Shown here one piece after another: positions 26,601-63,703 of a stretch of 64,000 nucleotides of DNA. The notes below the pieces were generated by a model. It was not told where the DNA came from and ran no database searches. It saw only the letters and a list, made by a program, of their open reading frames with translations. The position numbers and the translations under genes were made by a program. The stretch's first letter is position 1. The number at the start of each line of letters is the position of its first letter. The stretch comes from Xiphias gladius. Its lineage: Eukaryota > Chordata > Actinopteri > Istiophoriformes > Xiphiidae. The stretch is taken from positions 2,039,017 through 2,103,016 of the forward strand of contig NC_053414.1 in the NCBI RefSeq assembly GCF_016859285.1, given 5' to 3'.

Positions 26601-27285
26601 AGTAGCCATAGCTTAGCTTCTCACAGCTATGAGAATTTGACTACTTCAAAAATCTTTGTTACTGATAAAATATCAGCTGGGAGAATGAAACCTGAGACTT
26701 GTTAAACCAGAGTTACATACTGTCTCTGGAGGTTATCAGGACTCATAGAACCAGAGTTACATACTGTCTCTGGAGGTTATCAGGACTCATAGAACCAGAG
26801 TTACATACTGTCTCTGGAGGTTATCAGGACTCATAGAACCAGAGTTACATACTGTCTCTGGAGGTTATCAGGACTCATAGAACCAGAGTTACATACTGTC
26901 TCTGGAGGTTATCAGGACTCATAGAACCAGAGTTACATACTGTCTCTGGAGGTTATCAGGACTCATAGAACCAGAGTTACATACTGTCTCTGGAGGTTAT
27001 CAGGACTCATAGAACCAGAGTTACATACCGTCTTTGTAAGGTCAACAGAACTCGTAGAACCAGAGCTACATAGTGTCCTGTAGTTTATGCCGTTGAGGTT
27101 CTGTTTTCTCTTGGTCTGCAGGGATCCAGCTGAGGAAGGTTCAGGAGCAGCGTGAACAGGAGGAGGCCAAGAAGCGAGAGCCCACAGGAAATGACGTCGC
27201 CACCATCCTGTCACGGCGCATTGCCGTTGAGTACAGCGAATCAGAGGAGGAGTCCGAACCTGAGGACCAGGAGTGGTCCGACTGA
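20688..27285 (+). CDS. wasf3: wasf3 (WAVE3, WASP family member 3, actin regulator)
   Basis: Scaffold subunit of the WAVE regulatory complex that passes Rac signals to Arp2/3 to nucleate branched actin at lamellipodia. Coding exons: 20688-20820, 20959-21093, 23418-23571, 23869-23986, 24261-24305, 24413-24537, 25330-25617, 25873-26003, 26123-26341, 27122-27285; all phases join, giving 503 aa (the mammalian protein is about 502). The N-terminal WAVE homology domain ([41 protein letters not shown]) is followed by YFNLW-type and basic KRKEKRRQK segments. Then come a His/Pro-rich linker, a polyproline stretch, a WH2 motif ([12 protein letters not shown], about residues 438-455) and the acidic tail ending [24 protein letters not shown] points to WASF3 rather than WASF1 or WASF2. 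Two AATAAA signals follow (27383, 27468). Teleost a/b paralogue not resolved. Confidence 0.95.
21390..23180 (-). mobile_element. non-LTR retrotransposon relic in wasf3 intron
   Basis: The minus strand reads [20 protein letters not shown] followed by SKKGRPT (21850-22060), a reverse-transcriptase block common in fish LINEs. Upstream and downstream sequence keeps a LINE-like look without an open frame. Family not assigned. Boundaries are estimated from where the text stops resembling coding-derived sequence. Confidence 0.55.
23987..24172. repeat. (TGTC)n / (TGTCTC)n microsatellite directly after a wasf3 exon
   Basis: An imperfect TGTC tract starts within a few bases of the donor of the exon ending at 23986. 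It keeps long open frames on both strands (poly-Cys/Leu/Ser plus, poly-Asp/Arg/Gln minus) that have no biological meaning. Confidence 0.9.
26705..27075. repeat. 44-bp minisatellite in the last wasf3 intron
   Basis: The word AGTTACATACTGTCTCTGG recurs at 26711, 26755, 26799, 26843, 26887, 26931 and 26975 with exact 44-bp spacing, followed by one or two decayed units (27019, 27063). The array ends about 45 bp before the final coding exon at 27122. Confidence 0.93.
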
Positions 27286-28440: not shown

Positions 28441-31400
28441 GTTTGTAAGGAACTGTGAAGCCTGTAGGGGGCGCTGACAGGAGTTAAGACTGATTTATAT
28501 TGACTTATACAATTGGTAAAAATAATGATAATGACAGTAAATATTTGGTATTATTACTTGAAACTGATTAAACTGGAGTCTCAAACACTGATCAGTTATT
28601 TGACCGTGAGCCGCAGGTGGTCCAGCAGGTGGCGCTCTGCTGTTTCTATAAACTAACAAGAAGACGTTAACGAGGTGTCCGGCAGCTGTGAAACTGTTCA
28701 TGTCGTTATTCCCTGGTCCTTGCTGTGTTTCCTGTGTTCTGGAAAAACTGCAGATCTTCTTCCTCATGAATAAAAAGTATTTCTGGTTCGACTTCCTCTG
28801 CTGAAGGACCGAGTGTAACCACAGCTCTGTTGAATTTAGTTCGATTTGTGTTCTTTTTTACAGTTTTTAAAAGTTGTTCAGTGGAATCAAAACATTTCAT
28901 TTTATTAACTTGGCAAAGGAACTTATTTTTGTCAGCGGGATTACGCTAAAACTACTGAACTGGTTTGCACCGAACTTGGTGGAGGGACGGGGCCTGGTCC
29001 AGGGAAGAACCTGTTACGTTTTGGTGCGGATCCGGTCAAATGGACGGATTCAGGAATTTAATTTTTTATCACTTTGCGTAACATTGTAAGATGGGTGTTT
29101 TTTGCATCTGAAAGGCTCTGCGCTCTGCTAGGTGTCAGTCTAGTTTATAGATTTATAGATTTATTTTGCTGCTTAAACAGGAAAACGAATCATATTTTTC
29201 TTACTTCAGATATTATTTGTTCACGTTTTTTGGCTTCATTTTCATTATATATTACAAAACCGTTGTATTAATGTCTCCAATTGCTAATGTCTCCAATTTT
29301 AAGTTTCTGATGTTTTTGTCAAATTGCCAAATTTTGATTTTTACTCTAAAATGTTTAATTTTGGAAAATGATTTATTACATATTTTATTTATGGTTTGGG
29401 TTTTTGCATTTTGTGATTGTTTCCTGACTTTTGGGGGATTTTCTTTGTGTCTTGTAAATATTTTCTTTGTCCTCTAATGTAGTTGACCAACAGTATTTTG
29501 TAGCTGTGAACATCGATGTGTTTCCTCGTGTTCTCTGCTGGTTTTCTTGTACAGCTGGTTTCAGCATCTGATTCGTTAGTTGCTATGGTAACCAGAGAAG
29601 ATCTTGTTAATGGTCTTTCTGAAATACATCACGATTCTTAATGAGTTCGGAGACTGACGACAGTCTGAGACGCCACACAGCCACATGCTGCTTTTTATTA
29701 CTCATTTTTCTATTTATTAGATTTTTTCTTCATTCAATGTCACACAAAGTGCCAGTTGGCATCCCATGATGCATTTTGTTCTACTTACGTGATGTTATTT
29801 TGCAAGGTGAGACATGTGCGTTAGATTCATCAGTGTGATGTAGTGATGACATAATCCAGTAGACAGCGCCCCCTGGCAGGAAACTGCTTTCAATGTTTCA
29901 TGTCAACTGAATTTTTTGATGCAGTATTTCCTGTCTAGTGATGTCATCGCTGATGCTGATGATGTAAACAATGATCTGTCTTCAGAAAAAATATATAATG
30001 AGGGGGCGTGTGCTTCCTGTCCTGTACCATCTGTGATTGGCTGTAGAGATTTATTGCTTTATTGATCTGTGCTGTGTTCTCTGCTCTGTGATTTGCATGT
30101 TGGTGGAAAAAAATAGCAAATTCATAAAACAAATGAAAACACTGTGAAACAAGTCTGTCTTCAAAAGAAAGAAAAACTTTATTAACAACATCAGTTGTGA
30201 GTTATGTTTATTTGTGATCTTTGTTCGGAGCAGCTGATTGGATTCATGTTGTTACATTAGAGTTTTTGTGTTATTAGTTTTGTTATATTTAAAATTACAG
30301 TATTTTTCAAATTCAGTTCAAACAAGGTTAATAGATTTAAATAGATTTGTAAGTAGTTCATTTTTGGTTTGTTCTTACAGATTGTATTTGCTCATTTCCA
30401 ATTTTAATCTTAATTTTAATGTGATGTAACTGCTTTCCTTCTAAAATTGCATAAAAAAGGTTTCAAGGTTTTGCACAGGAGCAGTTTAGGGGTCAGAGCT
30501 GCAGCAGCCACTGAGCTTCACTGGGATCTTTTTATTTTATTTTACATAGTATTTTTAGACTGTTTAAATGTGATTATTTCTTACTGGGTTGGCCTAAACG
30601 TACGAGTTTCAGTATTTTTCTGCCAGAATGTCATTCTTGTGTCAGTGTGGAGAAGGTTTATCTTCTTATTGCTGAATAAAATGTACAGAAAGTGTAGTCG
30701 AGCAGTGAGCTAAATAAATGAAACAGAAACAATGCACGGGATTTAAAAACCAGAGCTGCGAGTGGTCCGAGGGGGTTCTCGTCACCACAGCAGGTACAGA
30801 TGTTTGTTCAGCAGTTTAAAGGTTTGTGATGTGGCTCTGAGTTTTCTGATCAGCTGCCTGTTCCTGCACGTGTTTAAAAGTGACACGGAACCAGATGTGA
30901 ACCAGATGTCCTGTATCCCGAAGTCGGATCAGTGGGTTCATCAGGTATATCTGTGGAGTTCTGTGGGTCCTGACGCCAAAAACAAAACCGCTAACATTTT
31001 ACTAGGAAGTATTATTTGAATGTTTGGTGTGTTTATCGGAGAGCTGACAGGAAATGAGGGCTGGAACTTTAAGAGCTGGGGGACAGCACTGCCTCAGCAT
31101 CTAAAACCACTGGGCCACCAGAGCAGCCCCCACGTTTCAGAGCCTTTCTCCTCCACCCTGTCAGCCGTGGAGCGGACATTCAGGCCAGCGCTGCACTCAT
31201 TTCCGCTTTCTTCTGCTTCGACAGCTGCAGTTCCTGGTGACTGTCCAGATCAAGACTGTACAAAACATATGATGAGTTTATAGAACACGACTTTTACGGA
31301 TGAAACTACCTGAAGAAAGACCAGCTACAGCATTAAGATGTTAATGTATCAGCAGTGACAATATCCAATATCATAGTAACACAATAACAACTTCAAACCT

Positions 31401-43923: not shown

Positions 43924-46900
43924 CAGTATCAGTGTGTTTTTGAAATTCTGACAGTCTAAGGTCTTGTTCAGACTGCCAGCCAAAATCAGTTTTTTTGGCT
44001 TATCCAGATTGTAATCCGGATAGATTCTAGAAAGTCTGGACAAGAAAAAAAAACCCACATGAAATGTGATTTTTGCAAACTGGATCCAAACCACATTTGG
44101 AGGTGGTTTGAAATGCGATTCCTCTAGACGCTCCGACTGCTCAAATCGGATTTCAAAGTGTCTTTTGCAACACAACACACAACCACGACGTCAAATCCAG
44201 AACAACATTAGCTATGTAGTTACTGATGGCTACATCAACCCATGCAAATAAGTGTGCGAGGTCCGGAGACACAAATCCGATCTGATCACTTGCAAACAAC
44301 AATCTGAACATCTATCTTACAGATCTGATCTGAGAAACAAATCTTATTTGCCTGCAGTCTGAACAAAGCCTAAATCAAAACGTAGTCTCGATGAAAAAAG
44401 TTTTCTGATAAGCTCTGGTCTCTTATGGTATGACTGGTCTGAGCAGATAAATGACAGGTATCAACTCCCACCTGGAGGCTCCATAGCGAGGAGGTCTAGC
44501 TGTAGGGGGGTGGTGGTGAGGTGGGGGGTAGGGGTCATAGGTCATCGTTCCGGGTGATGGAGGAGGGGGTGGGCGGGGGTGACCTGCCGGCTGGAAGCGA
44601 GGGGGCAGGGTGGATGTGGCTGGGCCTCCATATGAAGAGGGTGGCGGCATCAACAGCTCTGCCCCCTTCACCCCACTGCTGCCCCGAGACTTCCTAAAGT
44701 AACGATGGCGGTGATGACGCTGACCACGAGGATCTGAATCTAAGAGAGACAGGATGAGGACAGATACAAGGGCAGAGCATTACAGAAGGATTTTATGCTA
44801 ATGAGGAGGACGTTAAAGTAAATCAGACGTTATGGTAGAAGGTCGTTACGGTAGAGGGTAGGTCTGAAGGTCAGGAGGGCGTTACGGAAGGGCGTTACAG
44901 TAGGTCAGAAATACGTTACGGTAGATCAGAAGGACGTTACAGTGGGTCAGAAGGTCAAGATAACGTTACGTAGGGTCAGCAGGTCTGGGGGATGTGAACA
45001 GTAGGTCAGAAAGATGTTACAGAAGGGAATTACGATAGGTCTGAAGGTCAGGAGGACTTTACAGTGTGTGATTAAGTTGTTTTCACACTTCATTGAAAAT
45101 GGAATTAAAGACTGAAATGACACAGCTACTTCCGTACTTGAAGGAAAGTCATTTATTTCTGAATTTTTACAACTGAAATGAAGAAAACATCTTCAGTGAG
45201 CAGAAGCATGTGGAAAAGCAGAAATGAAACTGGATCTCAGAGTAAACGTACCCAGATCTCCTTTTCTAGTGGAAGCAGCAACATTCCAGGCGGGAACTGG
45301 ATTCACTGGTTTGAGATCAGTCAGAGGAACCAGGTGTCTGAGAGAGCAACATATTAGATTAACCGTTTTATATCAAAACTGAAGGCTGTAACTCAAAGAC
45401 AAACTCTCCTGCTCAGAATTTGTGAAAGCTGTAAAAGCTGTGAAAATGTGTTCATTTGCTCAGCCTCTTTATGATGACCAGTTTAACTTTAAGACAATTT
45501 AATCCAGTCCTCACTGGTTCAAAGGGCTGTTTGAGGGTTCAGACTTGGTTTTAGGGTTCAGGTAAGTATCAGGTTTAGGTTGAGTGTGTTACTTCTCTCC
45601 AAGCTCCTCAATGAAGACGGTGACAGCGGATGAGTGTGTTCCTACTTCCTGGATGAAAGCGTTGTAGTACTTCCCCTTTGGCTCCAGACGCACCTGAAAA
45701 AAAAAAAAAAAAAACCACACACACACACAAGATTGGATTCTATTTTTATTGGACTTTTTAAGAGTAACATTTTTTGTTCATTTGAGCTAAGTGTGTGATT
45801 GGCCTGTCACTTGGACACCAGGTAACATCCCAGAATTCCTGGTTATGACGGGGCTCATATCTTGTACATCATATGATAAACTGACAGAACAACAGGATTA
45901 GAAGCTGGTTCTTTAGCATACTAACATTAGCTTTAAGCTCCAAGCCCAGTCTTAGAGTATGGATCTGACTGACAGTCTGAGATGTCCTAAAAAGGCCACC
46001 GTAGAGAGGAAAAACCCCTTGGTTTTGTTGACAACATGACTTTTGCCCTGGAGCCACCCTCAGGACAGAGGAGATGTGGGGGTGGAGCTTTAAGGTGAAG
46101 CTTTTGAAGGTGTTGAAGTGGCAGTTGATGTTGTAGCACTGAAATGGTTTCAAGTGTCTTTTTGAAGCATAAGCCTAACGAGGTGTGAGCTGAAGGGTAA
46201 GTTGAACCCCTGTAAAACTAAAGAAAACTAAAGTTTAATACAGTTGTCACCGTGTTTCAGTTTGGAGTGTCTGCTCACACTGATTACTACGGCAGGCCAG
46301 TAAAATGTGACTAAACGGTTGAACTGAGTACAGTTGTCAGTGTATTGATGTGTTTTGTTACCTGACACTTGTCTCCCAGGAAGTACTGCCTCCCTGCAAA
46401 CACCATGTAGTCCGTCTTCTGCATCTCTGTCAGTCACAGACAGCACGGTAATCTGATTACTACAGTCTGACTCATAACATCAGATTTGCAAAGGTGTCTG
46501 TAACCAGATTACACATCTGTCAGTAATCAAACCAAAGATTTAAAGCCTCTGGTCGACTGCCTGCCTTGTTCTGGATTAACTCTGCCAATCAGTCTCAGGT
46601 TGTGTAACATAATTCCTCAGAACTGCAGGTAGCGGGGCGTGTTACATTTCCACCTGGACCATCTGGCTGTGGTAAAAAACTTACATGAATCAACTATATG
46701 AATGTTGTGTTTTCAGATTTTGGGCCATTTTATATGGAAACTGTGTGGACAAAATCAGACATTGTCGAAACAAAACTATTTCACTTCACATTAATGTTTC
46801 AAATTGGTATCAGAAACATGTACATTGTCTATTTCAAATATATAAAAAACAAACTTCAGGACTGTCGCTGTGTGACAGTCTGCTACCTTTGCAGGTGTCC

Positions 46901-48846: not shown

Positions 48847-51800
48847 CCCGATTACAGTTTTGAGGCTTTGACAGGGTGGCGGTAGGGGAGGCTTCCAAAA
48901 CTTCTGCCGTGGTAACTGACATCCTAATCAGTATATGAACGCTGTGTTTGTTTTTATTGCTACATATGAATTACCACAGAAATCCCAACTAGTCCATGAA
49001 ATCAGAAAAAGTAATCATCATCATCATCGTTCACTATGCGTCAACATTAATTACTAGTTATTCTCAGACAGACCACATTTAATCTTAGTTGTAGTTCTGT
49101 GCGTCACAGCTCTCATCGAACGTTACCAGCACTGACGGTGGGACAGTGACACGTGACCACGTGACAGATTTCCAACTTACGGCTACGCCAGCAAGATGCG
49201 GAAAAAGTCGAGTCGGGAATAACGTCTAGATTTGTGAAGGCGACGACCAAAAAGTCGAGCGGCAGATACGACAAAGGAAACGGGCAGATCACTGATGGGC
49301 TACGAGTTTGGTAAATCACCGTTGAACTGTCAGTAACAGCTGAGCGTCTTCGCAACTGCTAGAATTTGTGTTTTCCTATTATGGCTGATGTTAGTGCGAC
49401 CTCCATGCTAACAAAGTATAACACCAAAGTCAGATTTTTGTCCTGGTCTCTCTCTGTTCCCCTGTTGAAGCCTCGAATATTCATGGGCAATTCTCACTGA
49501 AGCTTCGAAGCCCCCAAAATAGTATTCGGGTCAGTCCTAATAAAACACACACCTGAGTGCAGAGCAGCTAGTACAGGAGAGCCCCACACACACACACACA
49601 CACTTCTATTTTTGTGAGGACACTCATAATGCATTCCCCATCCCCTAGCCTGAGCCTGATTGTAAACCGAACCATAAAAGCAGGTCTGAACCCTCAAAAC
49701 AGCCTTTGAAGGTGTGGGGACCAGACAAAATGTCCTCACTCTGTAAGGACTGTAACGCAAACTGGTCCACACAAAGATAGAAGTACAAGTACACAAACAC
49801 AAACACTCTGAATGACCAATCACTGATCAGTACTCACATTGACAGAGGGCGGCGGAGGCGGGGTAACTCCTCGGGTAAACAATGTCATAGTGACCATTGA
49901 TTGAGCAACAAAGTGTCACCTAGGCAACACAGAAGACTGACAGTCAGCACTGAGCAATCAAATCACAGTTTAATGTCATGTGACCTGCAGCAGAGGACGT
50001 GGTTTTCTGCTCCGTCTGTTTTTAGCCTTTAGTTGAGTCGGAGACGTTAACGTCTCGTTTCAGATTCGTCACATTTTCACAGTTTAAACTGTTTTTCATC
50101 CGAGTCACACAAAACAATTAAATACGAGTTTCTGATCAGACTGAGTCACCTGGATGTTTACAGAGCCACAACAGGTGAACAGACACAAGGAGGAAAGTCT
50201 TCAACAACAGACCTCCACCTGAGGACCACAGGTGAGAGAGCCAATGAGAGGAGAGCAGGCGCTCCAGGGAGGTGGCATGTCACTATCCCTGTTACACTAC
50301 TATTGTAATTGCAGCCTTTGTAACTAGAACTTGTTTTAGGTACGTTTTGATTCATTAGAACTTTTTAATGAAATGAGGCACATCTTTCTTTGTTCATTCA
50401 CTTTGTTCATACTCAGTTTTTATTATTTCTGCTCTGACTGTGCAAACTAAACAGTCTTGTGTTCCCTCTATACTGAATATGGAGAGAATGACAATAAATC
50501 CAACCTCATGTCACTTCCTCTAGTGGCCTCTCTCCACCCACAGACCTTTAACAAAACTTTAGTTTGACATTTTGCCTCTTCAGAACATTTTAATTACATG
50601 CATCAGAAGACTGTTTGGCAGTTGTGTTTCTTTTCACCTTGTCCACAAAGTCGTCCTCTGAGATCACGGTGGCTGGTTTCCCCGGGTAACGATAGATTAG
50701 GAAACAACGTCTAAACACACACACACACACACACAGTTTACCATTTAAACTGTACGAAAGGTTTATCATCAAAACATTGTTTTGCCATTGAGGTGATGCA
50801 ATGTGTAATCTGATAATGTCACATCTCATAATCCTCCATGTGATCACAAGATGCTCATCACACACTTCTGACTTCATGAAAATCCATAACCTTAAAAACA
50901 GAACAACTATGGCGACCTGCGAACGTACACACTGACTCGGTGGAAACAGCAGCCTCAGTTACATCTGGGAAACGGGATTTTTTATTGCAGTTGATTTTCA
51001 GCGTGTACGCTGTAATGATCCTGGTGTGAACATGAGTTTTTCTCACCTGTAGAGCTGAGACAGAGCCTTTATCTCCACCTGACCCACCGTCTCCTGAAAA
51101 CACACACTCACTGTTACACACTGTTATACACTGATCAGCCACAACATTAAAACCAGTTACCGGTTTTAATGTTGAGGCTGTACCTTTTTACATAGAACAC
51201 ACCTACAGCTGTCAGCGGACTGAAAGGTCAAAGGTCACAGTTCACCTTCGGGTCCTCCAGACGCTCCAGATATTTCTCAAACGAACCTTCGACAAACTGA
51301 AAGAGAAAACGGACACAGATCTGAAATGTAGCAGCCGGCAGTCGGCCATCAGCTGGTATCAACATGAACCTCCCCTGCCTCAATCATCAAAACTATTGGA
51401 CTACTGACTGACAGACTCATGGCCAGGTGTGGCCTTTTCCCTCGTTATTTCATGACAAATTAAGCAGATAAAAAGGTCTGGAGTTGATTCAAAGTGTTGA
51501 ATTTGCATTTGGTTCATGGGAACTCTCAATATGTGGTCCAAACAGGTGTCGATGCAAATGAAGGAGGCCGTCATTAGCCTGAGAAAACAAAACAAATCCA
51601 TCAAACAGAGCAGAAACTGTAGAAGTGGCCATATTCTTAATACCTGACCTTTGCGGTCAGTGGCTGCCTGAAGTCTGGAACCCGTGGACGTCAGCAAATG
51701 CTGAGTTTCCTCCCTTGAGATGGTTTGTCAGGCCTTTACTCAAGCCGCCTTCAGTTAATGCTTGTTTGTGGGACTTTCTGCCCTAAGTTTTGTCTTCAGG

Positions 51801-52985
51801 AAGTGAAAAGCCTGCTCAGTTGGGTTGAGGTCCTGTGACTGACTTGGCCATTGAAAAATATCCCAATTCTTGCCTTGAGAAAATCTTGGTTATCAATATG
51901 CTTTGGGTCATTATCAATCTCTACTGTGAAGAACCATCCAATCAGTTCTGCAGCATTTGGCTGAACCTGAGCAGATGGTTTAGAACTATACACTTCAGAC
52001 TTCATCCTGCTCCTTTCACCAGCAGTCACATCATCAATAAACACCAGTGACCCGGTTCCACTGGCAGCCATACATGTCCACGGCATTACACTGCCTCCAC
52101 CATGATTGACAGATAATGTGGTGGCTTTGGATCATGAGCCGCTCCTTTCCTTCTCCAGATTCTTATCATCCTGGTAAAAAATCATCAGGGTTTCACATCT
52201 GTCCCAAGAATCTGGTCCCAGAACTGGGCAGGTGTTTTTAGATGTTTTCTGGCAAAGTATAATCTGGCCTCTCTTTTCTTGAGTCTCACCAGTGGTTTGC
52301 ACCTTGTAGTAAACCGTCTGTATTTACATTCATCGAGTCATCTCTTGACTGTAGACTTTGACAATGATACACCTGCCTCCTCCAGAGTGTTGCTGACCTG
52401 GCCAGATGTTGTGAAGAGGTTTTTCTTCACCAAGGAAAGAATTCAGCGATCATCCACTTTCGTTGTCTTCCAGGCCTTTTGGTTCTGCTGAGCTCGCTAG
52501 TTCATTCCTTCTGTTTAAGGATGAACCTAATTGTTGACTCTGCCACTTCTACAGTTTCTGCTCTGTTTGATGGATTTGTTTTGTTTTCTCAGGCTAATGA
52601 CGGCCTCCTTCATTTGCATCGACACCTGTTTGGACCACATATTGAGAGTTCCCATGAACCAAATGCAAATTCAACACTTTGAATCAACTCCAGACCTTTT
52701 ATCTGCTTAATTTGTCATGAACAAAAAAAAACAACGGATCGGGACACACCTGGCCATGAGCCCTTTTCTCCAATTACTTTGAGGGACTTACTAAATGAGG
52801 GACTACGTATAAAAACGGCTGTAATTCCTAAACGGTTAATGTGATATTTTTGTTGAAACCCTTGAATTACAGTTTAAGTCTTCACCTCAATCCCATCTTG
52901 ATGGCTTCGTTTCAAATCAACTGTGGTGGTTAAGAGAGGCACATTTAAGAAAATTGTTTCACTGTCCAAATACTTATGGACCTAA

Positions 52986-56772: not shown

Positions 56773-59462
56773 TTAACGTGGTACAATCAATACTTTGGCT
56801 CATTGATCGGAGGAATGAGGGTGAATCTCTGTGCTTACTGTTCCTGAAAGACTCAGGCTTCTCTATAGTCACCTGATCCACGCTCCAGTCCAGGAGGTGG
56901 CGGTAGCGCGCCTCAAAGCTGCTTAAAAACCACCACATTTACACTTGATTAACAGGTAGACTGTTTAAAACACAGTTTGTTGAAACCTTTACGTATGAAG
57001 ATGGAAAAACTGGTGATTTCACTGTGTTTTCTCCTTCAGACCAGATCTCTCTTAAAAACCACCACATTTACACTTGATTAACAGGTAGACTGTTTAAAAC
57101 ACAGTTTGTTGAAACCTTTACGTATGAAGATGGAAAAACTGGTGATTTCACTGTGTTTTCTCCTTCAGACCAGATCTCTCTTAAAAACCACCACATTTAC
57201 ACTTGATTAACAGGTAGACTGTTTAAAACACAGTTTGTTGAAACCTTTACGTATGAAGATGGAAAAACTGGTGATTTCACTGTGTTTTCTCCTTCAGACC
57301 AGATCTCTCTTAAAAACCACCACATTTACACTTGATTAACAGGTAGACTGTTTAAAACACAGTTTGTTGAAACCTTTACGTATGAAGATGGAAAAACTGG
57401 TGATTTCACTGTGTTTTCTCCTTCAGACCAGATCTCTCTTAAAAACCACCACATTTACACTTGATTAACAGGTAGACTGTTTAAAACACAGTTTGTTGAA
57501 ACCTTTACGTATGAAGATGGAAAAACTGGTGATTTCACTGTGTTTTCTCCTTCAGACCAGATCTCTCTTAAAAACCACCACATTTACACTTGATTAACAG
57601 GTAGACTGTTTAAAACACAGTTTGTTGAAACCTTTACGTATGAAGATGGAAAAACTGGTGATTTCACTGTGTTTTCTCCTTCAGACCAGATCTCTCTTAA
57701 AAACCACCACATTTACACTTGATTAACAGGTAGACTGTTTAAAACACAGTTTGTTGAAACCTTTACGTATGAAGATGGAAAAACTGGTGATTTCACTGTG
57801 TTTTCTCCTTCAGACCAGATCTCTCTTAAAAACCACCACATTTACACTTGATTAACAGGTAGACTGTTTAAAACACAGTTTGTTGAAACCTTTACGTATG
57901 AAGATGGAAAAACTGGTGATTTCACTGTGTTTTCTCCTTCAGACCAGATCTCTCTTAAAAACCACCACATTTACACTTGATTAACAGGTAGACTGTTTAA
58001 AACACAGTTTGTTGAAACCTTTACGTATGAAGATGGAAAAACTGGTGATTTCACTGTGTTTTCTCCTTCAGACCAGATCTCTCTTAAAAACCACCACATT
58101 TACACTTGATTAACAGGTAGACTGTTTAAAACACAGTTTGTTGAAACCTTTACGTATGAAGATGGAAAAACTGGTGATTTCACTGTGTTTTCTCCTTCAG
58201 ACCAGATCTCTCTTAAAAACCACCACATTTACACTTGATTAACAGGTAGACTGTTTAAAACACAGTTTGTTGAAACCTTTACGTATGAAGATGGAAAAAC
58301 TGGTGATTTCACTGTGTTTTCTCCTTCAGACCAGATCTCTCTTAAAAACCACCACATTTACACTTGATTAACAGGTAGACTGTTTAAAACACAGTTTGTT
58401 GAAACCTTTACGTATGAAGATGGAAAAACTGGTGATTTCACTGTGTTTTCTCCTTCAGACCAGATCTCTCTTAAAAACCACCACATTTACACTTGATTAA
58501 CAGGTAGACTGTTTAAAACACAGTTTGTTGAAACCTTTACGTATGAAGATGGAAAAACTGGTGATTTCACTGTGTTTTCTCCTTCAGACCAGATCTCTCT
58601 TAAAAACCACCACATTTACACTTGATTAACAGGTAGACTGTTTAAAACACAGTTTGTTGAAACCTTTACGTATGAAGATGGAAAAACTGGTGATTTCACT
58701 GTGTTTTCTCCTTCAGACCAGATCTCTCTTAAAAACCACCACATTTACACTTGATTAACAGGTAGACTGTTTAAAACACAGTTTGTTGAAACCTTTACGT
58801 ATGAAGATGGAAAAACTGGTGATTTCACTGTGTTTTCTCCTTCAGACCAGATCTCTCTTAAAAACCACCACATTTACACTTGATTAACAGGTAGACTGTT
58901 TAAAACACAGTTTGTTGAAACCTTTACGTATGAAGATGGAAAAACTGGTGATTTCACTGTGTTTTCTCCTTCAGACCAGATCTCTCTTAAAAACCACCAC
59001 ATTTACACTTGATTAACAGGTAGACTGTTTAAAACACAGTTTGTTGAAACCTTTACGTATGAAGATGGAAAAACTGGTGATTTCACTGTGTTTTCTCCTT
59101 CAGACCAGATCTCTCTTAAAAACCACCACATTTACACTTGATTAACAGGTAGACTGTTTAAAACACAGTTTGTTGAAACCTTTACGTATGAAGATGGAAA
59201 AACTGGTGATTTCACTGTGTTTTCTCCTTCAGACCAGATCTCTCTTAAAAACCACCACATTTACACTTGATTAACAGGTAGACTGTTTAAAACACAGTTT
59301 GTTGAAACCTTAACGTGGTACAATCAATACTTTGGCTCATTGATCGGAGGAATGAGGGTGAATCTCTGTGCTTACTGTTCCTGAAAGACTCAGGCTTCTC
59401 TATAGTCACCTGATCCACGCTCCAGTCCAGGAGGTGGCGGTAGCGCGCCTCAAAGCTGCTTA
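56773..59462. repeat. 129-bp tandem array (about 18 units) bracketed by a 150-bp direct repeat
   Basis: CTTAAAAACCACCACATTTA recurs from 56922 to 59244 with exact 129-bp spacing (18 intervals); by eye the units are identical. The array is bracketed by two copies of a block of about 150 bp, 56773-56924 and 59311-59462 (TAACGTGGTACAATCAATAC ... GCGCCTCAAAGCTGCTTA). A single unit, one base longer and with a few differences, stands inside aars2 intron 1 at 60224-60353. All three plus-strand frames of the unit contain stops. Confidence 0.96.
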
Positions 59463-59606
59463 ATGAACAGGAAGGAGAAGTAGAAGCGGCCAGAATGCGC
59501 ATGTGCATCATAACAACCTGTAGTCACTGACAGGGTCGAAATGGCCCAGGTTCGGTCTGGGTCTGTCTCCGGGTCTGTCAGAGTTTGATCCGGGTCCGTG
59601 GTCCAG

Positions 59607-63703
<4,097 letters not shown>

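Follow-up and report, generated by a model that had tools for sequence, protein, structure and literature searches.

We characterized a homogeneous tandem array that lies ahead of aars2 in the swordfish, Xiphias gladius, and consider it probable, at roughly 0.7, that the array is a young minisatellite born from a fragment of a transposon. A monomer residing in intron 1 of the gene would have become a concatemer, which was then joined in upstream with duplication of 154 bp of flanking DNA. Coordinates throughout are positions within the window, the whole stretch of 64,000 nt that was analyzed (NC_053414.1, GCF_016859285.1), and refer to this one assembly.

The array, its junctions and its gene setting

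The array and the blocks that bracket it comprise the following features.

56773..56926 (+), upstream block, distal copy, 154 bp; 154/154 bp identical to 59310-59463
56922..56926 (+), left junction, CTTAA (5 bp) common to block and unit (sequence overlap)
56922..59311 (+), homogeneous tandem array, 129-bp unit, 18.527 copies (self-comparison and TRF)
59310..59311 (+), right junction, TT (2 bp) common to unit and block (sequence overlap)
59310..59463 (+), upstream block, proximal copy, same sequence as the distal block; adjoins the aars2 promoter region

The period is exactly 129 bp across 56922-59311, and in a unit comparison all 18 full units were free of mismatches (TRF estimated 18.6 copies). 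The array runs from unit phase 1 to phase 68 and contains 19 occurrences of the junction word. Both bracketing blocks are direct copies of the aars2 flank and are 100% identical to each other. Overlaps of at least 5 bp arose at random breakpoints in 0.7% of trials (P = 0.007) and overlaps of at least 2 bp in 16% (P = 0.16). Judged from its layout, the block-array-block structure is no product of chance. A sequence-only reading of this DNA had described a homogeneous 129-bp array between direct blocks, inserted with flank duplication and short overlaps, and the 18/18 identical units, the 154/154 bp block identity and the CTTAA and TT overlaps bear this out. It had named CTTA as the word shared at the left junction, which holds and is in full CTTAA, and TTA/ACGT at the right, where the overlap is TT only.

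Minisatellites, or VNTRs, are kilobase-size arrays of units set head to tail, each about 10 bp or longer, and 18.5 copies of 129 bp form an array of this kind. Within the window, further copies of the unit beyond the array and intron 1 did not rise above chance-level words of 12-17 bp. A coding role is ruled out by the longest frames across the array, which reach 42 aa, every one of them closing once in each unit. That the unit forms structured DNA was likewise rejected, folding z-scores being 0.60, 1.27, and -0.27 relative to shuffles. Rfam gave no match over 50-64 kb, and no tRNA genes were found in the whole window. Every unit carries an acceptor-like word, TTCTCCTTCAG, and a donor-like word, CAGGTAGA, about whose role in splicing one might speculate.

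Other tandem repeats served as controls, namely 29 TRF rows with a period of at least 20 and a score of at least 100, four in the window and 25 in the 200 kb around it. Only the 129-bp array reached 99% matches; the next, at 98%, has 2.6 copies, and the remaining rows (25 nearby and three in the window) span 59-98%. Flank duplication was likewise confined to the 129-bp array among the 29 rows, leaving aside one repeat cluster 40-50 kb left of the window (L024 2240-3293), which is made up of dense, diverged, nested tandem repeats. A looser look at nine window arrays found a 27-bp flank match at 93% and a 29-bp outside match for the array at 44887-44954, and a 21-bp outside match for one further array. 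The short arrays at 1732-1985 (45 bp x 5.6 at 97%) and 26705-27088 (44 bp x 8.7 at 94%) have neither flank duplication nor an outside copy in the window.

To the right of the array lie a putative promoter and the first exon of the gene.

56890-56904 and 59427-59441 (+), CTCF-like words in the distal and the proximal block, each with 1 mismatch to the consensus
59496..59507 (+), NRF1-like word, a single palindromic site within the putative promoter of aars2 that departs from the consensus at 1 base
59607..59840 (+), coding part of aars2 exon 1, 78 codons, GT donor at 59841 (translation and splice site)

Exons 1 and 2 together match tRNA-synt_2c in Pfam (2.1e-50) and alanine-tRNA ligases among solved structures in the PDB (1.7e-45); from the N-terminal extension we infer that the gene is aars2, the mitochondrial paralogue. 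Its ATG at 59607 lies 295 bp past the array end, and the last 154 bp ahead of the promoter region are retained, as the proximal block directly precedes that region. Near 54.5, 53.3, and 51.3 kb the minus strand carries three exon pieces that, when joined, match the OTU domain in Pfam (4.8e-6), and we take the gene to which they belong to be alg13. Since these pieces are on the minus strand, the two genes appear to stand head-to-head on opposite strands with the array between them, and the earlier statement that aars2 and alg13 share a direction is to be dropped. The open frame at 51796-52131 (-), which gave no match in Pfam, resembles to our eye a Tc1-type transposase fragment. As for the promoter motifs, the scans used consensus patterns for CTCF and NRF1. 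CTCF-like matches numbered six in the window against 0.32 expected, two of the six being the block copies, and the count of NRF1-like matches was reached in 7 of 100 window shuffles. The word at 28622-28636 fits the CTCF core pattern perfectly.

The intron 1 copy and its dispersed family

A search of 691 Mb of genome (1298 contigs), in which the counts for the unit are lower bounds, placed the full unit at the aars2 locus only, among the matches listed; a short extra match was a 33-bp piece on contig C23 at 97%. With 331 bp around the intron copy as query, contigs C24 and C21 matched at 71-72%, and these matches start left of the unit. The C23 element as query yielded 99 diverged matches, with several pieces to a locus, spread over 20 numbered contigs; 40 of 101 candidates were scored. 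By homology, then, the 129-bp unit belongs, as an internal monomer, to a foldback/MITE-like family that is old and dispersed, and the array is transposon-derived in that its monomer is homologous to such a family. It does not lie inside an element, being bounded by aars2-flank blocks that match no family locus, nor is it a high-copy genome-wide satellite, the full unit being listed for this locus alone. The claim that intron 1 holds the only other copy is correct for close copies, bar the C23 piece, but not for the family, whose diverged relatives are dispersed; what had been taken for an orphan intronic unit is one monomer of that transposon-like family. Genome-wide dispersal of the unit had been named as what would speak against the sequence-only reading, and in part it is seen: diverged relatives are dispersed, the full unit, among the matches listed, being at aars2 only. 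An exact 22-base word of the unit was sought in viral contigs and, as expected, nothing was found. Matches of L010 and L022 near the locus failed on closer check.

We mapped the family on 18 further loci drawn from the better matches, plus C23; the fetched stretches were short. The parts follow one another as head, arm, core, mod, and arm. At least two same-strand arms occur in 11 of the 18 fetched loci (9 of 18 without matches at E 0.001), and among the 13 family loci in which a mod was mapped, C23 included, 9 carry an arm on the same strand no more than 25 bp beyond it. Five of the 18 (L042, L051, L052, L057, and L058) have arm-mod-arm on one strand with arms about 156-187 bp apart. Inverted pairs are present in 6/18 loci, the longest being 138, 161, and 209 bp at 68-69% (L043, L054, and L058), and L054 and L058 each have a pair of inverted heads, one at either end. 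The family thus combines the long inverted repeats of foldback elements and MITEs with direct repeats in its interior. The two arms of C23 are on opposite strands. A 22-bp tandem array of 77.8 copies at 78% matches lies about 3 kb from the related element on that contig (L009 1-1701). At G000:C20:17515569-17516188 several family arms on one strand are spaced roughly 150-190 bp apart, which suggests a small array of this family that is older and has diverged.

Three parts of the element can be read in aars2 intron 1.

60165..60222 (+), the old element's 'head', adjoining the intron unit on its left; best family match 82% over 56 bp
60223..60353 (+), probable source monomer (arm-core-mod); core and mod found by search, arm by alignment only
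60352..60378 (+), partial second arm in direct orientation, from alignment to C23; 12 bp of C23 absent

The intron copy is the nearest relative of the array. It spans one unit plus 1 bp and differs by one substitution and one 1-bp insertion, so that array and intron unit are 98% identical over full length, compared with 71-72% for the next genomic matches. The 100 bp to its left match 9 of 19 family loci in BLAST (E <= 0.01); none of the 19 is matched at that threshold by the block, by the 773 bp on the left side of the array, or by the 637 bp on its right. When scores were set against the best of 30 shuffles, 18/19 loci came out higher for the 82 bp left of the intron unit (one narrowly) and 18/19 for the unit itself (with one tie). 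For the 87 bp to the right, 14/19 did so, mostly narrowly, and right-hand homology scored without position was not significant (34.6 vs. a shuffle maximum of 44.8). At 60352-60378, where the second arm was expected, 22 of 27 bases agree with C23, a number reached by none of 20000 random placements. Neither arm of the present intron copy scores in the part search of family loci; the arms are visible only in alignments. In alignment A1 the intron copy tracks the family from head through mod, and the array only arm-core-mod. Because family sequence adjoins the intron copy and not the array, the intron 1 monomer is likely to be the source and the direction to be from intron to flank, as the sequence-only reading had it.

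The join between units points to how the monomer was delimited. In the array, mod passes into arm as GGTAGACTGTTTAAAAC, and C23 carries this unit junction at 32/33 bases. No gap separates mod and arm in the array, C23, or L053; the other 7 of the 9 mod-arm loci have gaps of 7-24 bp, and 12 bp are missing here from the intron copy as it now stands. A 1-bp overlap in the present intron was rejected as the origin of the junction, which is present in family member C23. The ancestral intron element may instead have borne an intact second direct arm, the array unit being the segment between the two. Such a two-arm arrangement would supply 15 bp of homology for slippage or circularization, and it needs an older or different allele, as the present intron copy is without 12 bp of the second arm. 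A counterpoint is that in the five arm-mod-arm loci the arms are spaced about 156-187 bp, vs. 129 in the array.

Formation of the array and its age

In the formation that we favor, an old foldback/MITE-like element in aars2 intron 1 would have contained the 129-bp monomer, arm-core-mod, between two direct arms having CTGTTTAAAACACAG in common. Slippage, or circularization of the monomer at these arms, would have produced a concatemer. By way of the 5-bp and 2-bp overlaps it would then have been joined in 0.9 kb upstream, where the DNA had broken or a fork had stalled. There 154 bp of flank would have been copied twice, either because a restarted fork went over it again or because staggered ends were filled in. 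Copy number was perhaps altered later by unequal exchange. The locus shows a probable nearby source, short overlaps, and a duplicated target flank, which together point to a process of templated insertion. The free template switching proposed earlier fits less well, since a concatemer is more readily reached through the direct repeats of the family. Break repair by overhang filling has been documented for small tandem duplications (PMC8355091), and template switching with microhomology for germline insertions (PMC7615360). The founding insert would have held at least 1.5 units, because an insert of 0.53 unit has no internal repeat and cannot slip; the template would therefore already have been circular, tandem, or slipping.

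In one assembly, arrival of all 18.5 copies at one time and later growth look alike. Arrival of the whole array in one event, by some 18.5 rounds of a 129-nt circle or slipping fork on the intronic transposon monomer and capture through two short-overlap joins at the 5' flank, is conceivable, and we rate it as a rather doubtful proposition. Were it true, the array would be a natural and nearly unmutated record of the birth of a satellite by rolling replication at a gene, and also a segregating promoter-length variant. This single step is opposed by gradual growth, to which we give somewhat less than an even chance and which is itself compatible with an intronic origin: an insert of about 1.5-2 units from intron 1 would have expanded by unequal sister exchange or slippage and been homogenized. 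Ordinary unequal exchange also yields homogeneous arrays. Identity among the copies is equally expected under gradual growth; the array is moreover uniform yet two positions off the intron, and small diverged arm runs exist at other family loci. Gradual expansion often leaves diverged units at array ends, however, and no diverged edge units are seen here, the 18/18 units being identical up to both junctions.

The remaining explanations leave less room. An array inflated or invented by the assembler from an unresolved repeat is unlikely, even if perfect identity over 2.39 kb and duplicated blocks could stem from mis-assembly: repeating the intron sequence gives neither two distinct short-overlap junctions nor a two-position difference, and the other repeats here, at 59-98% matches, betray no general collapse to perfection. 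It is distinctly improbable that a second family member inserted upstream and amplified its own monomer there, with intron 1 not the source. The family is dispersed and has internal direct repeats, as this would demand, but the array equals the intron unit at 98% over full length where the next matches reach 71-72%, and no family sequence adjoins it at E <= 0.01. Selection of the array as a regulatory element of aars2 or alg13, be it a repeat enhancer or an insulator between the duplicated CTCF-like sites, seems highly improbable to us. Its end 295 bp ahead of the aars2 ATG, the CTCF-like words in both blocks, and the NRF1-like site alongside are what such a role would build on, but the motifs depend on consensus patterns and the unit folds no better than shuffles. 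Most likely the array has no function beyond length variation, with neutrality as the default.

Across the 2390 bp of the array and the 308 bp of the blocks the number of differences is zero, and the identical units agree with the recent amplification or homogenization that had been proposed. If homogenization never took place, the age of the array would be below 0.11-0.37 million years at assumed substitution rates of 1e-8 to 3e-9 per site per year. The intron copy does not match a simple clock: it differs from the array at two positions plus a 12-bp gap, and the chance that both of two differences land in the intron copy is 0.002, or 0.09 counting the blocks only. Because of this misfit, either homogenization or another source allele must be assumed.

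Comparable systems and significance of the locus

The foldback transposon Tetris of Drosophila virilis has internal tandem repeats that seed homogeneous arrays of kilobase size, the TIR-220 satellite (PMC4079207). As there, an inverted-repeat element with internal repeats would have had a monomer amplified into a homogeneous array; the likeness concerns the process, and no kinship of the elements is claimed. TIR-220 arrays are described there as arising within Tetris, favored by beta-heterochromatin, whereas the swordfish array lies outside the element, 0.9 kb off, between 154-bp flank duplications and by the start of a gene (PMC4079207). Xstir and miDNA4 of Xenopus, as described in a review, are satellites borne by MITEs, in which part of a miniature inverted-repeat element likewise turns into a tandem array; compared with what the review relates of them, the aars2 array is single-locus and outside the element (PMC9659126). 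Tandem duplications from break repair resemble the present case in that the flank of the breakpoint is directly duplicated, as by fill-in of overhangs before joining. The duplications in the account given there are small, however (insertions <100 bp; 43-bp overhangs in the assay), with no 2.4-kb concatemer between the copies (PMC8355091). Closer in setting is myostatin-2 of Sparus aurata, with repeat-length alleles in promoter and intron 1 that are inherited in Mendelian fashion (PMC3045353). This too is a fish gene with intron 1 repeat copies of about 150 bp and rearranged promoter alleles, but the copies are one or two and diverged rather than a homogeneous array, and the promoter and intron blocks are not described, in the part of the paper drawn on here, as the same sequence (PMC3045353).

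The literature searched on an array in the aars2 flank gave no report of the locus, by which absence is not proven. The early stage of tandem arrays is usually masked by later turnover, and here a single assembly displays the likely source, the junctions, the target duplication, and the family of the parental element. Zero divergence among the units points to an event so recent that it could still segregate in the swordfish. If it does, empty, single-unit, and array alleles would separate rolling replication in one step from stepwise exchange, and they would show whether a 2.5-kb insert 295 bp from the start codon of a housekeeping gene matters.
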